A stretch of DNA of 30,688 nucleotides from a virus (IMGVR_UViG_3300031227_000262:1-30688), one strand, 5' to 3'. Counted from the first letter of the stretch, positions 3,550-28,481 are shown. Program-made: numbers and translations. Notes: generated by a model not told the origin, from the sequence alone.

Positions 3550-4266
3550 TTACCCTTCTTTTTTTAACATCATTTTACAGAGAGCTACCGTCTGCCTGTA
3601 TATCTCTGTGTCCTCTTTTGATACACCATGCTTGAGAGCTATTTTGTCAACGTCTTTCTCCCAAACATCAATAGTCTGTAGCTCACAACCTATCTGTATT
3701 AAATCGGCGTATGCAGTAATGTCAAAACAACCCTGTGATATAATATTTATTACATTGCCGTAGACCTGAGCATCGCCGGAGACCTGAGCATTGCCGTAGA
3801 CCTGAGCATTGCCGTAGACCTGAGCATTGCCGGAGACCCAAGCATTGCCGGAGACCCAAGCATTGCCGTAGACCCGAGCATTGCCGGAGACCTGAGCATT
3901 GCCGTAGACCTGAGCATTGCCGTAGACCTGAGCATTGCCGGAGACCCAAGCATTGCCGTAGACCCGAGCATTGCCGGAGACCCAAGCATTGCCGTAGACC
4001 CGAGCATCGCCGTAGACCTGAGCATTGCCGGAGACCTGAGCATTGCCGTAGACCCAAGCATCGCCGTAGACCTGAGCATTGCCGGAGACCTGAGCATTGC
4101 CGTAGACCCAAGCATTGTTATTGTGATTCAAATTATTATGGCGTTGTATGTATCCGCCTTTCTCGCCTTTCTTCACATCGCCAAAGTTTCTTAGCGCTAC
4201 AATGCGGTGCAGCTTTTTTCCACCAACCACCACGAAATCTTTTTTGTCGTATTTATACTTTTTCAT
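3550..4266 (-). CDS. hexapeptide-repeat (left-handed beta-helix type) protein
   Basis: A 238-residue protein in three parts. Residues 1-50 form a basic head. Residues 51-170 consist of exactly twenty hexapeptides of the pattern [N/D]-A-[W/Q/R]-V-[Y/S]-G. Residues 171-238 form a helical, charged tail with one Cys pair. Hexapeptide repeats with small and aliphatic residues at fixed positions form left-handed beta-helices, about 18 residues per turn, giving six to seven turns here. Enzymes of this fold are usually acyltransferases, but no catalytic His is present in the repeats, so a structural or binding role is more likely. GGGGGAG precedes the ATG. Second gene of the left unit. Confidence 0.75.
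   Translation of the reverse strand: MKKYKYDKKDFVVVGGKKLHRIVALRNFGDVKKGEKGGYIQRHNNLNHNNNAWVYGNAQVSGNAQVYGDAWVYGNAQVSGNAQVYGDARVYGNAWVSGNARVYGNAWVSGNAQVYGNAQVYGNAQVSGNARVYGNAWVSGNAWVSGNAQVYGNAQVYGNAQVSGDAQVYGNVINIISQGCFDITAYADLIQIGCELQTIDVWEKDVDKIALKHGVSKEDTEIYRQTVALCKMMLKKEG
3757..4116 (-). repeat. twenty tandem 18-bp coding repeats
   Basis: An uninterrupted array of 20 units of 18 bp, exactly 360 bp, encoding hexapeptides. Units differ at only a few positions: AAT/GAT at codon 1, TGG/CAG/CGG at codon 3 and TAC/TCC at codon 5. The unit is a multiple of three and has no stop in any minus-strand frame, so all three frames stay open through the array. Copy number could change by slippage or recombination without breaking the protein. 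Confidence 0.95.
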
Positions 4267-4644: not shown

Positions 4645-5013
4645 TTATATGTTTGGGAGCTTCGCTTTCAGTTTATCGGGAAGTAATTCTATGAGTGCTT
4701 TGACGGCTCCGCGCAGACTTTCAAAGATATCTGTCCATTCCTCGGGCGTTACCTTGTCGCCACCGGCACTATCAATCTCTCTCGCCCTGCTGTATTTATT
4801 AAATGCTTCAACGAGATTAATAATTAATGACCTGAATTTTAATACCTTTGCGCCAAAGAACAAAGAAAGCACGGTAAATACACCGGCGATTATTGCTGCC
4901 GCCGCCTGATCCACTAAAAAATCTTTAATGGTTTCTCCGATGCCCGCATAAGCAACAGATGCAAATAATATGACCATGAGCAATGTAGCACTGAATACAT
5001 TAATACGTTTCAT
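4645..5013 (-). CDS. small exported or membrane protein in the lysis region, holin candidate
   Basis: A 122-residue protein. Residues 1-23 look like a signal peptide: basic KR, a hydrophobic core (TLLMVILFASV), then AYA before Gly. A second hydrophobic stretch lies at about 36-58, followed by an amphipathic, charged C-terminus (KVTPEEWTDIFESL onward). One leader plus one transmembrane helix next to a lysozyme gene suggests a holin or antiholin-type role. Some tail-tip or tape-binding proteins also look like this. It begins four bases after the lysozyme stop and is the last gene before the terminator. Function is inferred from position and topology. Confidence 0.6.
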   Translation of the reverse strand: MKRINVFSATLLMVILFASVAYAGIGETIKDFLVDQAAAAIIAGVFTVLSLFFGAKVLKFRSLIINLVEAFNKYSRAREIDSAGGDKVTPEEWTDIFESLRGAVKALIELLPDKLKAKLPNI

Positions 5014-5758: not shown

Positions 5759-8596
5759 TTACCACTGTCCATTTTTCGCCCGCGCGAATATTTTCCACGA
5801 CCGCCCTATCCCTGTATCTCCTGCCTTTGCCAACGATATTGTATCAGCATCAGCGTTCCATCCTGCAAACGTATTCCAGCCCCACGCATCGTCTATACCG
5901 AGGCTTTCCCGTAATGAGTCTAATATTGCCGGAGTCTTATCAACAAAGAACGTATCACCAGCAGAGGACACGAACATAATACTATACAGAGTATTTGCCG
6001 GGAGACTTGTTCCGGCGGTATCAGGTGCGGCGAACGTAATAAATGCTTTGACTGAATCCCCATTCGTTACAACGAGTTCATAACCGATACTATCCGCAAG
6101 AGCAACGGCGAAAGTATAGGCACTGTCCGCAGCCGAGTCTTGCCCGTCAAGAGCTCCTCCTTTCACCTGTACTTCCCAATCGTATAGAGTGTTCGGTATC
6201 AGTGAGGTTATCTGTTTCGTTTCGGTATTGGCAGCCACACTATCGACATACGCACCTCCTGTTGTCTCGACTATACGGAAACCATCTTCATTGAGTGTGT
6301 TGTCAGTCCATGTCACCGTTACAGTTGTCGAGCCGTCAGACGTTACCACTACATCAGAAGGTACTCCTGCCGCTACAGTCCAAGCAAATTTTAGCACCGT
6401 TGCGGTAGTGTCCAGTACAACATATTCCGCTCCGGCTGGCTCAGACTGCACAGAATCTTGATTTGACACTAAAAGAAAGGATGCTTCACCGCCTCTTGCA
6501 ATCGTAGCCTCAAGTGTATCTTCTCCAGCTTGGTTAAATATTATGTTAAATATTCCGGGCGATATTCCACTTGTGCCAAGCCCTGTTCCTATTGAAGCGT
6601 CAAAAGCCGTAGACTGATTATACCCGACAAAGTTCTTATATAATGCTCCGGTAGCCCCGAATGTTTGTTTCGTGTTGTAAATGTCAATAAAGAAGTCGGC
6701 TGTTGAACCGTCAGCATCAATGTCAATAGAAAGCGTATCTCCCAATATAGAGAAGTTACTTGTACTCACATACGGCAGCGTAGTCACATTGAACGCCATG
6801 CCGAGACGGTAAACATTAAAGTCATTATTAGCGTTTTTATATTGCCCGATAGTGTCAGCATCAACGGTTGATAGAAATGCCAAGTCAACGGCTTGCCTTA
6901 CGTTGGTGTAAGATGTTCGAGTAGAATCCGGCTCGAACTTCGCTGTTTTTGCATCGGACACCGGTATCGACAAATAATAAGTATGGTTAAATGCAAACTT
7001 GGTGACATCGGTATCAGTGTTAGAATTATTTGAGTATCCAATAGAATTGTAAGCAACAACATACAGTTCATAAGTTTGCCAAGGATTTAATCCCTCCACA
7101 GTCGCAGCTTCAACGTCAGCGCCTACAACTGCAACCGTTGTTGTGTCAGCAGCATTTTTCACAAAGAATCCAACTTCATCGTCAGAATCATCAGACCATG
7201 TGACATCAAATCCAACTGTCGATGAATCAACTATTGCGAATGACGAAGGTGCTGTTGGTACGGAGGCATAAGTGAATGACAAATATGCACCAGTTGCTCC
7301 TAAACCACCGGCTGTGAAACTCACAGATTCTGAATCCGTTGGTTCAGAATTATCATAATCTTCTTTTGATATTAAGACTATCCATAAAGTGTCATTTGCA
7401 GCAGCTACTACAGAATCACGGCCAGCAGAATTAAATATAATCGTATTCCAATCAGCAGAGTATGAAGCTGTGTTCCATGTATCATTAAGCACTGTTCCTG
7501 TATGAGCACCTCCAGAAACCCAACCATCAAACTCATTATAGTCTGCTGTTGTCAAAGTTGGGCCGTATGTTGAGGATAGTATATATACATCAAAGTCGTC
7601 AGTAGAGCCGTTACTCGAGCCGTCAACAAATAAAGAACATGCGGACACAGCAGCCAATTCTGGTATAATAAAGCTCGCGTCTGCCCTCATGACACTGAAT
7701 CCAGTTAATTGCCCGATTAAAAAATATGTTCCTCTAGTTTCTGCTGTTTCGGGGTCTCTTGCGTCTGAATACGTTAACTCGTGGCCCATTGCCAGATAGC
7801 CATCTTCGGCATAAATAGGGTCTACGGTAGTGTTTGGGTCAACGGTTATCGGGAACACCTCTTCGCCTGTCAGGTTCACCTCATAGACAAGAGTATCGCC
7901 CACAACGCTTGAGCTTACAATTACATTATCTTTATTGGCATCCCAAGCCGTTGGTTTTGTGACTCTGAACTTGAACTCGCCTGCGTCATCTCTAAATATC
8001 AATTCGCTATTTGAGTCTGCTCCGTCCATGACAGCGTTTGTTTCCATTGCCCACTTGAGCGTAAACGTAGCATTATCATCTTCGAGGATATAGTTTTGCT
8101 TGACGCCCGTATTCGTTGGGATTGTTTCAATAGTGATACTCTCCGTGTCCGATAGAAATTCGTACTTGATTGAATAGTCGCCGCTCTTGTCGAAATAAGT
8201 ATAGTCGTGTTGCTTGCCGTTCATCCATGTAGCTTTATAGTTTCCGGCATCGACATATTTGTCGTGTTTCCTGAGCGGGTTTAATTTAGCAAGAGCCGAG
8301 ATTTCTTTCTCTGTTAAGTCGATAGGTTTGTAGGTAAAATCATCACTATCAAAATAATTAACAGGATTAGAATATACATGAGCCTGACGCTTATTATCCT
8401 TGCCCTTGAATATCTTAATATTGTCCCGCTTCTCGCCCTTTTTCAGCTTCACGACATGCGTTATTTCTTCGCCGACTTTGTACTCAGACAGAGGTCTATT
8501 ATCAACAACAGAGCCCTTATCTCCAACAAGAAGCAAGAGTGTCGCTATAACCGCCGGAACACCCGCTCCTGCCAGCCATTTTTTATTCATTGCCAT
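5759..8596 (-). CDS. large FN3/DNRLRE-like protein with N-terminal hydrophobic anchor, candidate receptor-binding or surface protein
   Basis: A 945-residue protein. Residues 5-25 form a hydrophobic segment after a Lys pair, either a signal peptide without a clear cleavage site or an anchor. Residues about 30-258 form a beta-rich domain ending FPITVDP, a phrase common before DNRLRE-type domains. Two DNRLRE-like domains (about 260-443 and 535-740) alternate with two fibronectin type III domains (about 446-533 and 742-830). The C-terminal ~115 residues are not recognised. It lies between a fibre protein and the lysis genes, where receptor-binding proteins are often found. GGGAGG lies eight bases before the ATG. 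An exported adhesin is the main alternative. Confidence 0.75.
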   Translation of the reverse strand: MAMNKKWLAGAGVPAVIATLLLLVGDKGSVVDNRPLSEYKVGEEITHVVKLKKGEKRDNIKIFKGKDNKRQAHVYSNPVNYFDSDDFTYKPIDLTEKEISALAKLNPLRKHDKYVDAGNYKATWMNGKQHDYTYFDKSGDYSIKYEFLSDTESITIETIPTNTGVKQNYILEDDNATFTLKWAMETNAVMDGADSNSELIFRDDAGEFKFRVTKPTAWDANKDNVIVSSSVVGDTLVYEVNLTGEEVFPITVDPNTTVDPIYAEDGYLAMGHELTYSDARDPETAETRGTYFLIGQLTGFSVMRADASFIIPELAAVSACSLFVDGSSNGSTDDFDVYILSSTYGPTLTTADYNEFDGWVSGGAHTGTVLNDTWNTASYSADWNTIIFNSAGRDSVVAAANDTLWIVLISKEDYDNSEPTDSESVSFTAGGLGATGAYLSFTYASVPTAPSSFAIVDSSTVGFDVTWSDDSDDEVGFFVKNAADTTTVAVVGADVEAATVEGLNPWQTYELYVVAYNSIGYSNNSNTDTDVTKFAFNHTYYLSIPVSDAKTAKFEPDSTRTSYTNVRQAVDLAFLSTVDADTIGQYKNANNDFNVYRLGMAFNVTTLPYVSTSNFSILGDTLSIDIDADGSTADFFIDIYNTKQTFGATGALYKNFVGYNQSTAFDASIGTGLGTSGISPGIFNIIFNQAGEDTLEATIARGGEASFLLVSNQDSVQSEPAGAEYVVLDTTATVLKFAWTVAAGVPSDVVVTSDGSTTVTVTWTDNTLNEDGFRIVETTGGAYVDSVAANTETKQITSLIPNTLYDWEVQVKGGALDGQDSAADSAYTFAVALADSIGYELVVTNGDSVKAFITFAAPDTAGTSLPANTLYSIMFVSSAGDTFFVDKTPAILDSLRESLGIDDAWGWNTFAGWNADADTISLAKAGDTGIGRSWKIFARAKNGQW

Positions 8597-18709: not shown

Positions 18710-19657
18710 TTAAAAGCTCCAAATCTTGTAATTGTAAATAATGTTTTCAAGCTGCTCTAATCTGGCAACTGTCTTCCCCTCAATTACTGTTTCCCGATGT
18801 GAATACATATCCGCGCAGAATAATTTGATGTATTGTTTTATAGGAGCCGGAACATCCGATCTGGCGTCACCATACCCAGCAATAATACGAGCGAGCACTG
18901 GATTAGTCGGCCACAAAGTATCAGACGGCCAGCTTTTACCATAATCAAGTTGTATTCGGCCTGGCTGGTGTATTATATCGACTCCATAATCATCAGTTGT
19001 AAGTGTGTTAAGAGTCTCGCCTGAATCGGTATATTTAACATAGGTAACAGATTGTAACGGCGATGCTGGTAACGAGATATAATCTAAGCTCGGCGGGAAC
19101 CTGTCAAAATAAACGTCCCATGTCTGAGTCAATAATGCACGGTTACAAATAGCCTCTGTGTATTCTCGCACTGTTGTTATAAGCGCATCAAGATAATCAT
19201 CCTCTGCGCTTGTCGGAGCATCCTTAATGACGCTCACCGCAAAATCACACGTTGCAACTGCAACGGTACTAACGACTCGGATATATTGTTTTGTTCCGGT
19301 ATACTGTATCTCCTGCACAGCGTTGTCATTGGCCTCTGTGACCTGAGTAAACGCACCACCTGACCAATCAGTATATGAGGCATTAGTATCAACATCCGAC
19401 TCTTGTATTTTTACATCAACGGTTCCGCTCGTTCCATTTGTGCCGGAATTCAGACTCACCAATGAACTAAAGCCAGCCACGGTGACGCCCGATCCCTTGA
19501 GACTGTACGCGGAGGCCACAACATGATCCCCGGGAACAATGCTCTGCTCAACTGACAGATCATCTGCAAAACTTGTTGAGTCGATGCGTAGATGCTCTTT
19601 TAATTCAGTCGTGGTTATCGGCTCAATGGTTGGCGCTGTTACAATAGATTTTACCAC
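18710..19657 (-). CDS. gp6-like head-tail connector with a large inserted domain
   Basis: A 315-residue protein, roughly 110 residues longer than usual for gp6-like connectors. The ends fit the family: EPITTTELKEHLRID at the start, then after residue 150 DDYLDALITTVREYTEAICN, RALLTQTWDVYFD, and SYKLFCADMY-like helical segments (IKQYIKLFCADMYSHRE) near the C-terminus. Residues about 35-147 interrupt this with a beta-rich domain containing GTVDVKIQESD, AFTQVTE and TKQYIRVVST, similar to the decoration-like domain elsewhere in this genome. The start is a GTG with AGGAGG ten bases upstream. Confidence 0.8.
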   Translation of the reverse strand: MVKSIVTAPTIEPITTTELKEHLRIDSTSFADDLSVEQSIVPGDHVVASAYSLKGSGVTVAGFSSLVSLNSGTNGTSGTVDVKIQESDVDTNASYTDWSGGAFTQVTEANDNAVQEIQYTGTKQYIRVVSTVAVATCDFAVSVIKDAPTSAEDDYLDALITTVREYTEAICNRALLTQTWDVYFDRFPPSLDYISLPASPLQSVTYVKYTDSGETLNTLTTDDYGVDIIHQPGRIQLDYGKSWPSDTLWPTNPVLARIIAGYGDARSDVPAPIKQYIKLFCADMYSHRETVIEGKTVARLEQLENIIYNYKIWSF

Positions 19658-19660
19658 CGT

Positions 19661-19876
19661 TTACTTGCCTCCTGCCCTTTTCTTTCGTGCTGATCTCTTC
19701 GATGTGGTTTCAGGCGCCGGGAGAGCAGTCGCGGTTTCGACTTCGACTTCGCCAACGGCTACCGCGTACCCTGCTTTTATAAGTGCTCTGGCAACGGCAT
19801 CGGAGAATTCAATTTCAGAGCCAGCAGAACAATTGTATTGTGGCCCGGCGATATTAGTGTTTACTTTTACTCTCAC
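19661..19876 (-). CDS. small conserved-looking phage protein before the connector
   Basis: A 71-residue protein starting MRVKVNTNIAGPQYNCSAGS, followed by VARALIKAGYAVAV, and ending with a very basic tail (KRSARKKRAGG). Short proteins with an N-terminal IAGP motif and ALIKAGYA commonly precede connector genes in siphophages; their role is unknown. The start is GTG at 19876, after an extended GGGGGG site. The basic tail could bind nucleic acid or a capsid surface. Confidence 0.7.
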   Translation of the reverse strand: MRVKVNTNIAGPQYNCSAGSEIEFSDAVARALIKAGYAVAVGEVEVETATALPAPETTSKRSARKKRAGGK

Positions 19877-19887
19877 ATTACCCCCCT

Positions 19888-21165
19888 TTAATAGATTCGC
19901 TTAATGCTAAACTGTCCTGTAGTTATTATACAATTAGTGTCATCTGTTACATCTTTCACATATATTTCTAAAGTATTAGCTCCAGTTAAAGACACAAAAG
20001 CACTTGCAGATGATGTTCTTGCATCGTCCTGTACTGCAAACTCAGCATGTGCATGTAGAGCATCAAGCCGTGTGGCAAGATGAACAGTACCAACAGACGA
20101 CCAGTCAGTATATGTTCCTGTTGCAATATTTACACCTTCATCGTCTGTTAGTTCAAATGTTTTATCACCTTTATTGGCAATCGTATAAATATTATCATTG
20201 ACTTCAACCATACCTACAACACCGGTAATCTTAACTCTATCGCCGTTAGTTAACCCATGGTCGGTAGAGGTCGTTACAACTCCAGGGGTTGCTTTTGTTA
20301 TACCTGTTATAGCTGTTCCTGCTGCGACTGTTGTTATCTCAAATACATCAACACCATAAACTTTAGCTCCTCCTGCGGACTCTATATCGCCAGAATATGA
20401 AACTTCATAAACTCCAGTAGCTCCAATAGTAATATTATGAGTTCCAAAAGCAGCATTAGAAATTTGCTCTGGCATATCAGCTTCAAATATAGTAAGCTTC
20501 TCGTAAGCATCAACTAAGGCAATAGTTATTGTAGTTGCTGTATCTTTAAGGTACAAACCAGCGAAGTCAGCTCCGACAAGTTTTCCTGCACCGTCATTCC
20601 CGACCATTACTAAATGATCCGAATCGTTTATAGCAAAATTGGCGAGAGCGCCACCAGCAGATATAAAGTTCAGGGTACCACTCAGATTAGCAACATCATC
20701 ACCAATAGTTATTGATGTCTTTGCAAGTAAACCATTCGTCACGGCATTATAATATAACATTCCACCATCAACGATGAGGCTCTTGCCAACAGTGAGGCTA
20801 TCAACTACTGCGGCTTCAGCATCAGCGAAAAAGTTTCCGTCTACCTCTATCGACCCCTCAATGCCTGCGCCTGTAGGAGCATGATCCCAAGTTGGCACAG
20901 AACCACCTATTATCTGCGTGAAAAGACCATTAACAAATGCCGGGTGCGGTATTCTTAACGGATTAACAAAATCACTTCCGGATAAGCTGTTGTCAACTAC
21001 CTTTATTGAATCAACAGAATCACCCGCGAGTTTTGGCAAAGTTACAGCCTCGTCAATTATATCAATAGTCGATATGCTCTTTGCCGTGTTCCTTACCTGT
21101 GACTCTGAAATCAGCGGCGTTAGGAGAAACAGCGATAATATCAGCAGTAGAATTATCTTTTTCAT
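19888..21165 (-). CDS. signal-peptide-bearing fibre-like protein (third of the exported cassette)
   Basis: A 425-residue protein. Residues 1-22 are a signal peptide (MKKIILLLILSLFLLTPLIS, then ESQ). The body starts with a repeated trimer-fibre-like region. Residues about 280-355 contain VTTSTDHGLTNGDRVKITGV and VNDNIYTIANKGDKTFELTD, the pattern seen in a domain common in phage fibre and tail proteins. The C-terminus is beta-rich and ends TGQFSIKRIY. The ATG shares its A with the previous stop (TAATG). Genes of this size in the head module are usually cytoplasmic virion parts, so the leader is unusual. Virion fibre exported for assembly or secreted protein are both possible. Confidence 0.7.
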   Translation of the reverse strand: MKKIILLLILSLFLLTPLISESQVRNTAKSISTIDIIDEAVTLPKLAGDSVDSIKVVDNSLSGSDFVNPLRIPHPAFVNGLFTQIIGGSVPTWDHAPTGAGIEGSIEVDGNFFADAEAAVVDSLTVGKSLIVDGGMLYYNAVTNGLLAKTSITIGDDVANLSGTLNFISAGGALANFAINDSDHLVMVGNDGAGKLVGADFAGLYLKDTATTITIALVDAYEKLTIFEADMPEQISNAAFGTHNITIGATGVYEVSYSGDIESAGGAKVYGVDVFEITTVAAGTAITGITKATPGVVTTSTDHGLTNGDRVKITGVVGMVEVNDNIYTIANKGDKTFELTDDEGVNIATGTYTDWSSVGTVHLATRLDALHAHAEFAVQDDARTSSASAFVSLTGANTLEIYVKDVTDDTNCIITTGQFSIKRIY

Positions 21166-21701
21166 TACTGTTTCCCCCGGGTTGAAACTATGTTTGTGAT
21201 TATTGCATCAGTGCCGCCTGATTCAGCAGAGAAGTTAAGTCTCAGCGAATCCGCTACCGCCACATTGGATGATACAAGCCCCTCATTCCCATCTGATGTA
21301 TAAACTGTCGGATCAATATCGAGATCGGTCCAGCCGGAAGTGCCTGTTTTTGTCTGTAATCCAATTGTGACATTTGTATTAATGTCCGTTATTTCAAACA
21401 AGAAACCGGCGATATTATATCCCCTGACAGAAAGACCGAGTGTTGCTCCTACAGCCGACAGCGATTCACCTGTCGAATCTCCGACTGCATAAGGCGACTG
21501 TAAATTAAAAACCCAATTTTCTCCGTTGTTGATATATGTTGCCCCGGTATCAGTTTCATAAAACGTCTGGCCCTGCCCTGACAATGTTGTTGGCTTTGTA
21601 TCGCTCGAGAGCCCTATAAAAGAAACCTTATTGAGAACCGCTCCCAAAGAGAATAGAAATACCAGCGACAGGACAAAGAATAATAGTAATTTGTTTTTCA
21701 T
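21165..21701 (-). CDS. signal-peptide-bearing virion-like protein (second of the exported cassette)
   Basis: A 178-residue protein with a strong leader or anchor at residues 1-22 (MKNKLLLFFVLSLVFLFSLG). The next segment, GQTFYETDTGATYINNGENW, closely matches a phrase common in phage structural proteins, and the C-terminal 100 residues are a beta-rich domain ending DAIITNIVSTRGKQ. AAGGA lies seven bases before the ATG. An imperfect hairpin lies upstream at 21720-21741. No cleavage site is clear, so it may stay membrane-bound. Function unknown. Confidence 0.65.
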   Translation of the reverse strand: MKNKLLLFFVLSLVFLFSLGAVLNKVSFIGLSSDTKPTTLSGQGQTFYETDTGATYINNGENWVFNLQSPYAVGDSTGESLSAVGATLGLSVRGYNIAGFLFEITDINTNVTIGLQTKTGTSGWTDLDIDPTVYTSDGNEGLVSSNVAVADSLRLNFSAESGGTDAIITNIVSTRGKQ

Positions 21702-21719
21702 GATATATTCCTTTTTAAT

Positions 21720-21741
21720 GGGGACGCACAGAGTACGCCCC
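21720..21741 (-). other. GC-rich hairpin between exported-cassette genes
   Basis: On the minus strand GGGGCGTAC and GTGCGTCCCC pair around a three-base loop, with one bulged T and one G-U pair. It lies 16 bases after the stop of the LamG-type gene. A short A/T stretch follows but no long T run, so it is a weak terminator at best. A similar hairpin at 23821-23846 shares GGGGCGT on its 5' arm. Confidence 0.6.
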
Positions 21742-21756
21742 TATTATCCCTATCGT

Positions 21757-23784
21757 TTACTGGTTATAATATCCTCGGGTGCGAACGTAAAGCTCCCATA
21801 CCTCATCTGATGTTAGCTGAGTGACAGATTGAGAAATATCGCCTAAATCTCCCGTCCACACATTATCAATATTACCATCACCATCTTCATTACCAGAAAC
21901 ATATACCAGTGCAGCAAGGTTCTCCATGCCAGTATATGAGCCGTTATCAACTGCCGTTGCTGCAACAGCCACACCGTCCACATACAGAGTAATTCCAGCC
22001 GAAGCCGAACCACCGCCGGCGCCATCATAAACTGCCGTTACCATATACCACGTAGCCGTTGTTAAGGCAGCGTCACTTTGCATTGATTCATAAGATGGCT
22101 CGCTGTCATCACAGATCATCATTGATAAATATTCATCCTCATCAATAAAGAACGCCCATTCTTCAGCGGTATTCCCAGCCGTCAAATCGTATTTAGCGAG
22201 TATCATTTGTGAATCTGTGCCAGCGACAACGTATACCCAAGCATTTGTCGTGAATCCGTTAGCACCTCCGGCATCATCAAAGAAGAAATCGGTATGGTCG
22301 GTAATAGTTCCACCGTCATCGACACCATCCATATCGAGGGCATATACTAGCCCCTGATCTATTTGATCGTCCGCTGTCATAGTGCCAACATAAGTCATAT
22401 CATGATTATGCGGCGATAAGTCCATCTCTGTAGTTATTGGTGTTATCCACGCCAAAAGTAAATGAATGTCAGCATCAAGAGCCAGAGCGGTGGAGGCAAG
22501 TTGATAAGTGAACATATCATTGAAATCTGTTGATAGATCAACGGGCGCGAGTGTGCCGTCTCTTATCTCTGTAGTCGAGACGATATTCGGCCCGAGGTCA
22601 TCATTGCCGATAGCCCCGGTTGGTATCTTCGTTGAATCAACAGCAGTAGCCGCTAAATCTGCGTTGCCGACTCCAAGATCCCGGAGAGCATTTGTCTCAA
22701 CAGAATTAACCTGATAATCACCCTCGCCTACACCATTATCGGTAATAGTAACCGAGTCAACAGCTGCAAGAGCAGCAAGCGCGCCTACATCTCCACTCAT
22801 AATTATGGATTCATTCCCAATCCAAAGCGTAGTGGAGCCCGCCCCAGAAGTCGTATCGTCAATTAAATTGGCGTCTGCATCTGTGCCTATGGCGATCCCA
22901 TTAGTTACGGCAGGTGTACCACTGATAGTTTCTAATGTTAAAGTAGTCGGAATATCGGCGTCTTCTAAAGCCCTATATGCCGGTGCAGCAGAAGCCCCAT
23001 TGGATTCTAAGAATGTGCCATTCGCACCAAATTCTAATTCTATTATAGTGCTGGCACCATTACTATAGAACGATCTCCAGTTAGTTGGCGTTGCTAATGT
23101 TGCAAGATCAGCATCACCTATATCAATAGCAGCTATTGTACCGTCACGAATCGCATCGGTATCAACGGAATTAACCTGGTAGTTTCCAACGCCTAATCCG
23201 TTCGCCGTAGTATTTGTACTGTCGATCCATGCAGTAATTGTGGCAACAGTAATGTCCACCCCGAAATCCCACGTTCCCCCATCAATATCAACTACATCAC
23301 CATCATTCCATTTAATAGTCGATGTTGAACCGTCTGGTGCGAGGCCGGATATGGTAAATACCCCGCTCGGGATAGATATTACACCTGCCGAATCAGATAG
23401 ATCAGACAAAGGTGCCAGCTTGAAAGTCATTACTCCATTGGTTGTAAGAGTGTCAGTCACAAGCAGATAGTTTGTTCCTCTGTCTCCACTTAAGCCGAGT
23501 ATTTTACTCGCTACCGATGTTCCCAGAGTAACGCCATCGACATAGTTTAGTTCGGCTGCGCTTGATGTGACCTCCACCCCGCCGATTTTCCAAGACCCCC
23601 TAAGAATATCAAGCACCCCGCCGGTTTCGATTGTGATCTGGCCGTCTGTAACAACCTCAAGTGAATCTCCGCCTCCATGAAATATCAGGCCGGTAGAATA
23701 CCCCACCTGAGCGAAAGCGTCTTGGTTGCCGTACCCTGCGACCAGAAATAACGCAATAAGCACAACTAAATAAATTTTTTTCAT
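21757..23784 (-). CDS. signal-peptide-bearing fibre/LamG-like protein (first of the exported cassette)
   Basis: A 675-residue protein. Residues 1-25 are a signal peptide (MKKIYLVVLIALFLVAGYGN, with an AFA-Q cleavage site). The N-terminal half contains phage-fibre phrases: VTSSAAELNYVDGVT and repeated TDAIRDGTIAAIDIGDADL-type Asp/Ala segments. The C-terminal ~230 residues form a concanavalin/LamG-like domain (LVYALDMDGVDDGGTI, ITLYVDGV), which usually binds carbohydrate. GGAG ten bases before the ATG fixes the start at 23784; a further upstream in-frame codon would disrupt the leader. It lies between capsid-associated and connector genes. Secreted or surface-displayed sugar-binding role is inference. 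Confidence 0.75.
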   Translation of the reverse strand: MKKIYLVVLIALFLVAGYGNQDAFAQVGYSTGLIFHGGGDSLEVVTDGQITIETGGVLDILRGSWKIGGVEVTSSAAELNYVDGVTLGTSVASKILGLSGDRGTNYLLVTDTLTTNGVMTFKLAPLSDLSDSAGVISIPSGVFTISGLAPDGSTSTIKWNDGDVVDIDGGTWDFGVDITVATITAWIDSTNTTANGLGVGNYQVNSVDTDAIRDGTIAAIDIGDADLATLATPTNWRSFYSNGASTIIELEFGANGTFLESNGASAAPAYRALEDADIPTTLTLETISGTPAVTNGIAIGTDADANLIDDTTSGAGSTTLWIGNESIIMSGDVGALAALAAVDSVTITDNGVGEGDYQVNSVETNALRDLGVGNADLAATAVDSTKIPTGAIGNDDLGPNIVSTTEIRDGTLAPVDLSTDFNDMFTYQLASTALALDADIHLLLAWITPITTEMDLSPHNHDMTYVGTMTADDQIDQGLVYALDMDGVDDGGTITDHTDFFFDDAGGANGFTTNAWVYVVAGTDSQMILAKYDLTAGNTAEEWAFFIDEDEYLSMMICDDSEPSYESMQSDAALTTATWYMVTAVYDGAGGGSASAGITLYVDGVAVAATAVDNGSYTGMENLAALVYVSGNEDGDGNIDNVWTGDLGDISQSVTQLTSDEVWELYVRTRGYYNQ

Positions 23785-23857: not shown

Positions 23858-24304
23858 TTATGCCTCCGCCGGACTGACTACCAAAGTGGCCTGAGAAATA
23901 GATGAGTGATCCGAGACAGGAGTTTTCCGCTTATGTGTCAAGATGACACTGCCCGTGCCAAACGCAATGTTTGCCGTTGCGCTTGTGACTGCAATTTGAA
24001 TATACCGTTCTTCCGGCTTGTCAATTTCGAGCACTAAAAGAGTATTATTCAGATCGTCATTAGCTCCTGATGTTGCCGTTGCTGTGGCCCCTGAAAGAGC
24101 CGCCATGCCTGAGTCTGAATCGATTGTATTCTGTTGCCCCGTGATTGTTGCAACGCCAGTATCAGCACAATCCTCAATCGGAACAATGAAGGTCACGCTC
24201 TCATAATTCTGCATGTCAATTCTGTCAGAATTAGTGTCCGTACTACTGGCATTAGAGATGGGATCGAGAACTTGTCGAATTTCTTCATTCTTTATAAGAT
24301 TCAT
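23858..24304 (-). CDS. capsid decoration-like protein
   Basis: A 148-residue beta-rich protein directly after the major capsid gene. It has no leader. The pattern MQNYESVTFIVPIEDCADTG, a central Ala/Thr/Ser-rich stretch and PEERYIQIAVTSATANIAFG followed by a final strand matches a family of small phage proteins usually encoded next to the capsid. The same layout recurs in the inserts of the connector and one tail-tube protein here. A role as a surface decoration or stabilising protein is likely from position and pattern. GGAG lies eight bases before the ATG. Confidence 0.65.
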   Translation of the reverse strand: MNLIKNEEIRQVLDPISNASSTDTNSDRIDMQNYESVTFIVPIEDCADTGVATITGQQNTIDSDSGMAALSGATATATSGANDDLNNTLLVLEIDKPEERYIQIAVTSATANIAFGTGSVILTHKRKTPVSDHSSISQATLVVSPAEA

Positions 24305-28313: not shown

Positions 28314-28481
28314 TTATTTATCACCCTTCAGAAAACCGCCAATTATTATTAACGACCCGACAATCGTTAATGCGATCCACGGCATAAACATCCAAAGCCC
28401 GGATAACAATGTCATGAGCCCGATTATAATAATTATATCACGAATTATATCACGCCTTTTAAAGAATTCTTTTATTTTCAT
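28314..28481 (-). CDS. 55-residue two-helix membrane protein between terL and portal
   Basis: A short ORF, MKIKEFFKRRDIIRDIIIII onward, with two hydrophobic stretches (about 13-31 and 34-50), separated by a Pro-Trp turn, and a basic N-terminus. ATGA overlaps the large terminase stop, which argues for coupled translation. The stop lies within the portal gene's ribosome-binding region. Small membrane proteins at this place are not standard parts of a packaging operon; a small holin-like, anchoring or superinfection role is possible, none shown. Confidence 0.65.
   Translation of the reverse strand: MKIKEFFKRRDIIRDIIIIIGLMTLLSGLWMFMPWIALTIVGSLIIIGGFLKGDK

Follow-up and report, generated by a model that had tools for sequence, protein, structure and literature searches.

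Why should three consecutive genes in a phage head module each begin with a Sec-type leader? The prevailing view places both assembly and decoration of tailed-phage heads in the cytoplasm, and the question is raised by positions 19,888 to 23,784 (minus strand) of IMGVR_UViG_3300031227_000262, a 30,688-base (30.7 kb) record of an uncultivated HK97-type siphovirus, the whole of which is termed the window here. The three genes fill a slot between the decoration and connector genes, and sequence comparison indicates that they are very probably Sec-exported variants of a head-fibre-slot family. The parts, head-slot fibres and signal peptides, are known; what appears to be new is their combination.

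Three leaders in the head module

The minus strand of the window encodes, in order, terminase, portal, protease, an HK97-type capsid protein (Pfam match to PF05065, E 3.7e-57), a decoration-type protein, the three genes, a 71-amino-acid (aa) protein, a connector and tail genes. A first-pass annotation of this DNA had described three consecutive genes with a Sec leader or anchor, with fibre phrases and a LamG-like domain in their bodies, lying between the capsid/decoration and connector genes. This description was borne out: the flanks match PF05065, phrog_5707 and phrog_442/phrog_40, the three minus-strand genes are positive by the leader rule given below and have their own Shine-Dalgarno (SD)-like sites, the quoted phrases are present, and gene 1 contains a Laminin_G_3 domain.

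The predicted cuts, read by eye, are MKKIYLVVLIALFLVAGYGNQDAFA/QVG for gene 1, MKNKLLLFFVLSLVFLFSLGA/VLN for gene 2 and MKKIILLLILSLFLLTPLISES/QV for gene 3. By rule, all three leaders exhibit a basic n-region, in which lysines occupy positions 2-4, followed by 13-19 uncharged residues that form the hydrophobic core and by small residues at -3/-1 that suit signal peptidase I (SPI), the site of gene 2 being weak; neither a lipobox nor a twin arginine is present in the three. The rule, a basic n-region followed by an uncharged 9-mer whose mean hydropathy is 2.0 or more, picks out 3/3 slot genes of the window versus 7/746 non-slot genes of related loci (0.9%). With so few other genes flagged, three leaders in a row by chance are not credible. 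Elsewhere in the window the rule flags only a lysis-region protein (4645-5013) and a 945-aa protein (5759-8596). The latter lies beside the lysis genes, has a hydrophobic N-terminus and fn3 domains, and may be exported too, as a fourth such protein. The periplasmic glycosylation motif D(S/T)(A/I/L/V/M/T) is enriched in it (18 versus 6.9 expected) and shows no enrichment in the three slot proteins.

Glutamine occupies the predicted +1 position in genes 1 and 3, not in gene 2, and also in L004, L002, L019 and L020 (sites chosen by eye; L numbers designate the retrieved loci). Glutamine at +1 is the pattern of Bacteroidota SPI substrates (PMC5837995), and its occurrence in several leaders hints at a Bacteroidota host.

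One slot family with and without leaders

Relatives were retrieved with a capsid alignment comprising the window and Streptomyces phage Chymera, which fetched 80 loci. Many of them share one gene order: portal, protease, capsid, decoration, variable slot, small protein, connector. Chymera has the same order with a single 119-aa protein in the slot. A slot between decoration and connector is a feature of many HK97-type phages.

Most relatives have a slot protein with an N-terminal base of ~35 residues, TYxPKVYxKQGGDExVVASGGxxxVESGG. A hidden Markov model (HMM) of this base matched 59 slot proteins, never more than one in a locus; two came from isolate phages. The base starts at residue 2-10 in 49 of these, which leaves no room for a leader, and at residue 24-40, behind a leader, in 10. 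With window gene 1 and L035, whose base is marginal (E 0.03), leader forms account for 12/61 slot fibres versus 7/746 other genes (Fisher p 4e-10). An HMM built from leaderless bases only, with the search space set to 100 sequences, matched the ten leader forms at 1e-11 to 1e-18 and window gene 1 at ~1e-4. Window gene 1 shows the base of the slot-fibre family (by HMM and alignment) and lies directly after the decoration protein and before the connector, as in the relatives. Gene 1 also aligns with the leader-bearing fibre of L044 (39% identity, 117 columns).

Two pairs illustrate the boundary between leader and base. L014 reads LLIAALAWA/ADTTYGPKVYRTDGGDKEV (AWA/ADTTYGPKVY) where leaderless L018 reads M/ADTTYQPKCYRKQGGDEFV (M/ADTTYQPKCY), and L044 reads GLAINA/GYQTNVYMKQGGAEQV (AINA/GYQTNVY) where leaderless L061 reads M/GYNAKVYRKQGGDELV (M/GYNAKVY). 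A cut at the expected site would therefore yield the mature N-terminus of the leaderless relatives after Met removal. The complete slots of the window, L044 and L011 contain no second, leaderless fibre. In L014 the coding strand flips to minus right after the fibre gene (L014:3842-5485), possibly the mark of a chimeric assembly, and only the capsid-to-fibre part of this locus was used.

Among described families, phrog_12102 (small head-slot proteins of HK97-type phages, function unannotated) has the base and the position after the capsid/decoration genes in common with the window. Its profile matches leaderless L018 and L060 as well as leader-bearing L014 and L044; window gene 1 has no direct match. 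The members from isolate phages (L009, L010 and Azospirillum phage Cd gp35) are leaderless, unlike the window protein.

A capsid tree of 61 phages calls for 5 changes of leader state, 3 of which are forced by well-supported branches, and a tree constrained to group the leader phages was rejected (approximately unbiased test, p-AU 6e-58). Leader-bearing L014, for instance, sits in a well-supported group with leaderless L012, L013 and L054. Since recombination may move the slot independently of the capsid gene, the changes represent switches at the slot and not necessarily new leader inventions. In multi-gene cassettes the leaders are mostly all present (the window 3/3, L044 3/3, L011 2/2, L019 2/2, L004 3/3) or all absent. 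The third leader gene of L044 (L044:8852-11800) encodes 982 aa with 12 cysteines after the leader, a composition that would suit folding outside the cytoplasm. By eye, the second slot protein of L011 and L019 could belong to a leaderless 123-aa slot family, an assignment that failed an iterated search and was rejected. A drop in K/R directly behind the leader (mean 1.45 versus 2.36, p 0.004) was not significant with independent tree pairs and was not used.

Comparison of L029 with L041 over the whole fibre gene gave 56 synonymous and 12 nonsynonymous codons. Over the 42 codons of leader core, linker and base start there were 7 synonymous and 0 nonsynonymous codons. The opening three or four codons are not the same in the two, owing to substitution and to one additional codon. 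This 7:0 pattern, from one pair, favours constraint on the leader as protein. It also bears on the proposal that the leaders are functionless, arising from a start-site error, an assembly artefact or capture along with host exported-protein domains. LamG is also common in host surface proteins, which would suit capture, and the L014 contig may be chimeric after its fibre gene. However, SD sites lie directly before the leader ATG; the search for internal starts that would give a leaderless isoform found no SD-preceded one, and weak 3-base matches within or after the base in a few. In addition, the leaders precede the phage's own base rather than a host domain, and they recur in the slot fibres far above the frequency in other genes. 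Together with the 7:0 pattern, these observations make functionless leaders very improbable.

The leaders might alternatively remain uncleaved as membrane anchors, with the fibre displayed on the outer face of the inner membrane and capsids tethered, once the cell has lysed, to pieces of membrane or other cell remnants. In L029, L040, L041 and L066 the base is preceded by a linker and by long hydrophobic stretches more like signal anchors, and the cleavage site of gene 2 is weak. Short cores, with good SPI-like sites immediately adjoining the base, in gene 1, gene 3, L014, L019, L020 and L083 argue the other way, and as a general account anchoring is unlikely.

Capsid or cell surface

In the proposed mechanism, the leaders would route the proteins through Sec late in infection, where signal peptidase I would remove most of them; a few relatives may keep theirs as membrane anchors. 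Cleavage would expose the N-terminus that leaderless relatives reach by loss of the first Met. The mature fibres would then stay in the periplasm or outside the cell until lysis brings them together with finished capsids, to which they would bind, their lectin-like tips pointing outward to attach virions to surfaces. This whole statement, of a leader-bearing head-fibre cassette that is exported, cleaved and bound to finished capsids at lysis, is given a probability of roughly 0.4, and the step in which exported fibres bind capsids is itself tentative. From gene position and weak links to head-fibre families, we infer that the base would be the capsid-binding part. As the final site of the mature proteins, capsids are slightly favoured over the cell surface because leader-bearing proteins keep the base and take the place of leaderless ones one-for-one.

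The first-pass annotation had offered an exported surface layer or virion fibres assembled through the envelope. The export signals it relied on have gained weight, as the leaders precede the family's own base, are conserved in one pair and have changed state several times. Its second option has become more specific, the gene 1 family being a head-slot family that is usually leaderless.

Known systems provide partial parallels. In phi29, the head-fibre gene gp8.5 lies next to the capsid gene and its product has an N-terminal base that binds the capsid and a long distal part (PMC6542822). The likeness lies in gene position, N-terminal base and long distal part, and gp8.5 is a precedent for a capsid-binding base. 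gp8.5 is not known to carry a leader. The window genes gave no match to PF11133 (Phage_head_fibr, the phi29 gp8.5 family), and the distant leaderless relatives L009/L010 gave a weak C-terminal match of 14.4-16.5 bits, below the gathering score of 24.6. Head fibres and Hoc may aid attachment (PMC7602432). The HFTV1 capsid turret and the Hoc decoration of T4 are accessory proteins of the capsid surface with a supposed role in attachment, as is proposed for the slot proteins; no Sec leaders were reported for them in the literature examined, unlike the window genes. An AlphaFold2 model of gene 2 is all beta (predicted local distance difference test, pLDDT, 70.7). Its Foldseek search found no structure at E 0.001 or better; CBM6 was among several weak matches to beta-sandwich folds, and the weak fold match to the HFTV1 turret (E 2e-3) is not significant.

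Surface display on the infected cell ranks close behind capsid binding. Head-fibre genes would in that case have been recruited to the infected-cell surface or the medium. There their products would serve as an adhesin, a receptor mask, a decoy or a barrier to superinfection, no longer as virion parts. Sec-type leaders and the lectin-like LamG domain of gene 1 agree with such a role, as do the exported Q-rule proteins of Porphyromonas gingivalis phages (Nixviridae), which are of unknown function and thought to modify the outer membrane (PMC10367356). The Nixviridae proteins share with the window phage-encoded signal peptides with Q at +1; in contrast to the window genes, they are not described as a head-fibre family with leaderless relatives.

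The relatives of genes 2 and 3 also suit a host-linked role. Single-protein scans found two phages, L004 (IMG/VR 3300033145_000127) and L002 (3300014613_002324), with L003 as an identical fragment; scans with the capsid protein alone or gene 2 alone found no relative. The capsid of L004 belongs to another family (phrog_29, with scaffold), and three consecutive leader-bearing genes stand beside its head genes, directly before the scaffold gene. Of these three, one is a homolog of gene 2 (33% over 91 residues, E 3e-16) and one of gene 3 (65% identity over the C-terminal 226 residues). Because both recur beside another capsid type, a purely capsid-bound reading is weaker for these two genes, and a host-linked role suits them better than a capsid-linked one. 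The gene 2 family exists in both states, with leaders in the window, L044 and L004 and without them in L012, L013 and L054. In L002 a single fibre, which runs off the contig, combines one module from gene 1 (75% over 67 residues) with another from gene 3 (58% over 67 residues); a small leader protein follows it. Genes resembling glycosyltransferases and methyltransferases occur immediately upstream of the L004 leader cassette and again inside the tail module (L004:41-1697 and L004:9318-10523), and could serve modification of the virion or of a surface.

Against recruitment to the cell surface stand the head-slot base, kept behind the leader at 1e-11 to 1e-18, and the replacement of the leaderless fibre by leader forms, which are not added beside it. 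The slot also lies within the late head operon, which is mildly against a superinfection-exclusion or moron role. Cell-surface recruitment is a doubtful but serious possibility.

Binding of the exported fibres to capsids has its own difficulties. The window base is the most divergent among the leader forms except L035, its structure model, relevant to the beta-tulip base fold of the gp8.5 family, is poor (pLDDT 62, predicted template modelling score, pTM, 0.33), and no solved structure in the PDB matches the base by sequence. Head-fibre identity comes through position and weak profile links (phrog_12102, and PF11133 below threshold). Genes 2 and 3, shared by L004, which lacks the base, need not depend on the capsid type of the window. 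L052, which combines a leaderless 82-aa fibre-like protein with a leader-bearing 118-aa protein, breaks the all-or-none pattern, and no cultured leader form was found among isolate phages. Searches of isolate phages returned nothing beyond the gene 3 FCCH domain, a leaderless base in Azospirillum phage Cd and, in Synechococcus phages, a brief match to the L044 fibre; the genome collections yielded none with gene 3 or the gene 1 module. The literature searched, which excluded most subscription journals, contained no report of leader-bearing head fibres.

Mapped features and implications

Table 1 Features of the slot and its flanks in the window.
Feature	Coordinates	Strand	Support
Decoration-type protein, precedes slot	23858..24304	-	phrog_5707 E 8.6e-6; homologs directly after capsid gene in most relatives
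Gene 1, 675 aa: leader, then base of the head-fibre slot, repetitive body containing AAELNYVDGVT, LamG at the C-terminus	21757..23784	-	SD GGAGAA before 23784
Gene 1 leader, residues 1-25, predicted cut AFA/QVG	23710..23784	-	rule-based test
Gene 1 base domain, residues 26-61	23602..23709	-	alignment with leaderless relatives and HMM
Gene 1 LamG/concanavalin-A-like lectin domain, residues 507-661	21802..22266	-	Laminin_G_3 PF13385, E 3.7e-12
Gene 2, 178 aa: leader, then adaptor SSDTKPT...ETDTGATYINNGENW and a body rich in beta structure	21165..21701	-	SD-like AAGGA before 21701
Gene 2 leader, residues 1-21, predicted cut LGA/VLN, least certain of the three sites	21639..21701	-	rule-based test
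Gene 3, 425 aa: leader, shaft, E1_FCCH domain, conserved C-terminal region	19888..21165	-	SD-like GGGGGA before 21165
Gene 3 leader, residues 1-22, predicted cut SES/QVR	21100..21165	-	rule-based test
Gene 3 E1_FCCH domain, residues 293-353	20107..20289	-	PF16190, E 4.5e-11
71-aa protein, usual slot end	19661..19876	-	phrog_2616 E 5.4e-8
gp6-like head-tail connector, ends slot	18710..19657	-	phrog_442 E 4.3e-19, phrog_40 E 6.9e-10

Residues 50-142 of the window connector form an inserted domain of the decoration protein's family (phrog_5707, E 1.2e-12). The L011 connector has the same insert, and the connectors of several relatives are only ~190 aa long. A PDB sequence search with the decoration protein gave no match. 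Between terminase and portal lies a 55-aa hydrophobic protein (28314-28481), and an annotated membrane protein occupies the same place in Azospirillum phage Cd. The protein at 3550-4266 exhibits long runs of NAQVYGNAWVSG-type hexapeptide-like repeats, perhaps a beta-helix.

Generalized beyond the window, the proposal is more speculative: some tailed phages might route head fibres through host Sec, have them cleaved to the N-terminus that cytoplasmic relatives show and add them to capsids externally as the cell lyses, an extracytoplasmic assembly step toggled repeatedly in evolution. If true, virion assembly would be linked to the host secretion system, and folding, disulfide formation or modification outside the cytoplasm would be allowed; a test of what head fibres are for would also be at hand. 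Families whose members differ at the N-terminus, some having a leader and others none, constitute a natural experiment on whether decoration can follow export. If the proteins stay on the cell instead, virion fibres would have been repeatedly recruited as surface proteins. The repeated switching of leaders in this slot family suggests that some tailed phages may export part of their shell decoration out of the cell.

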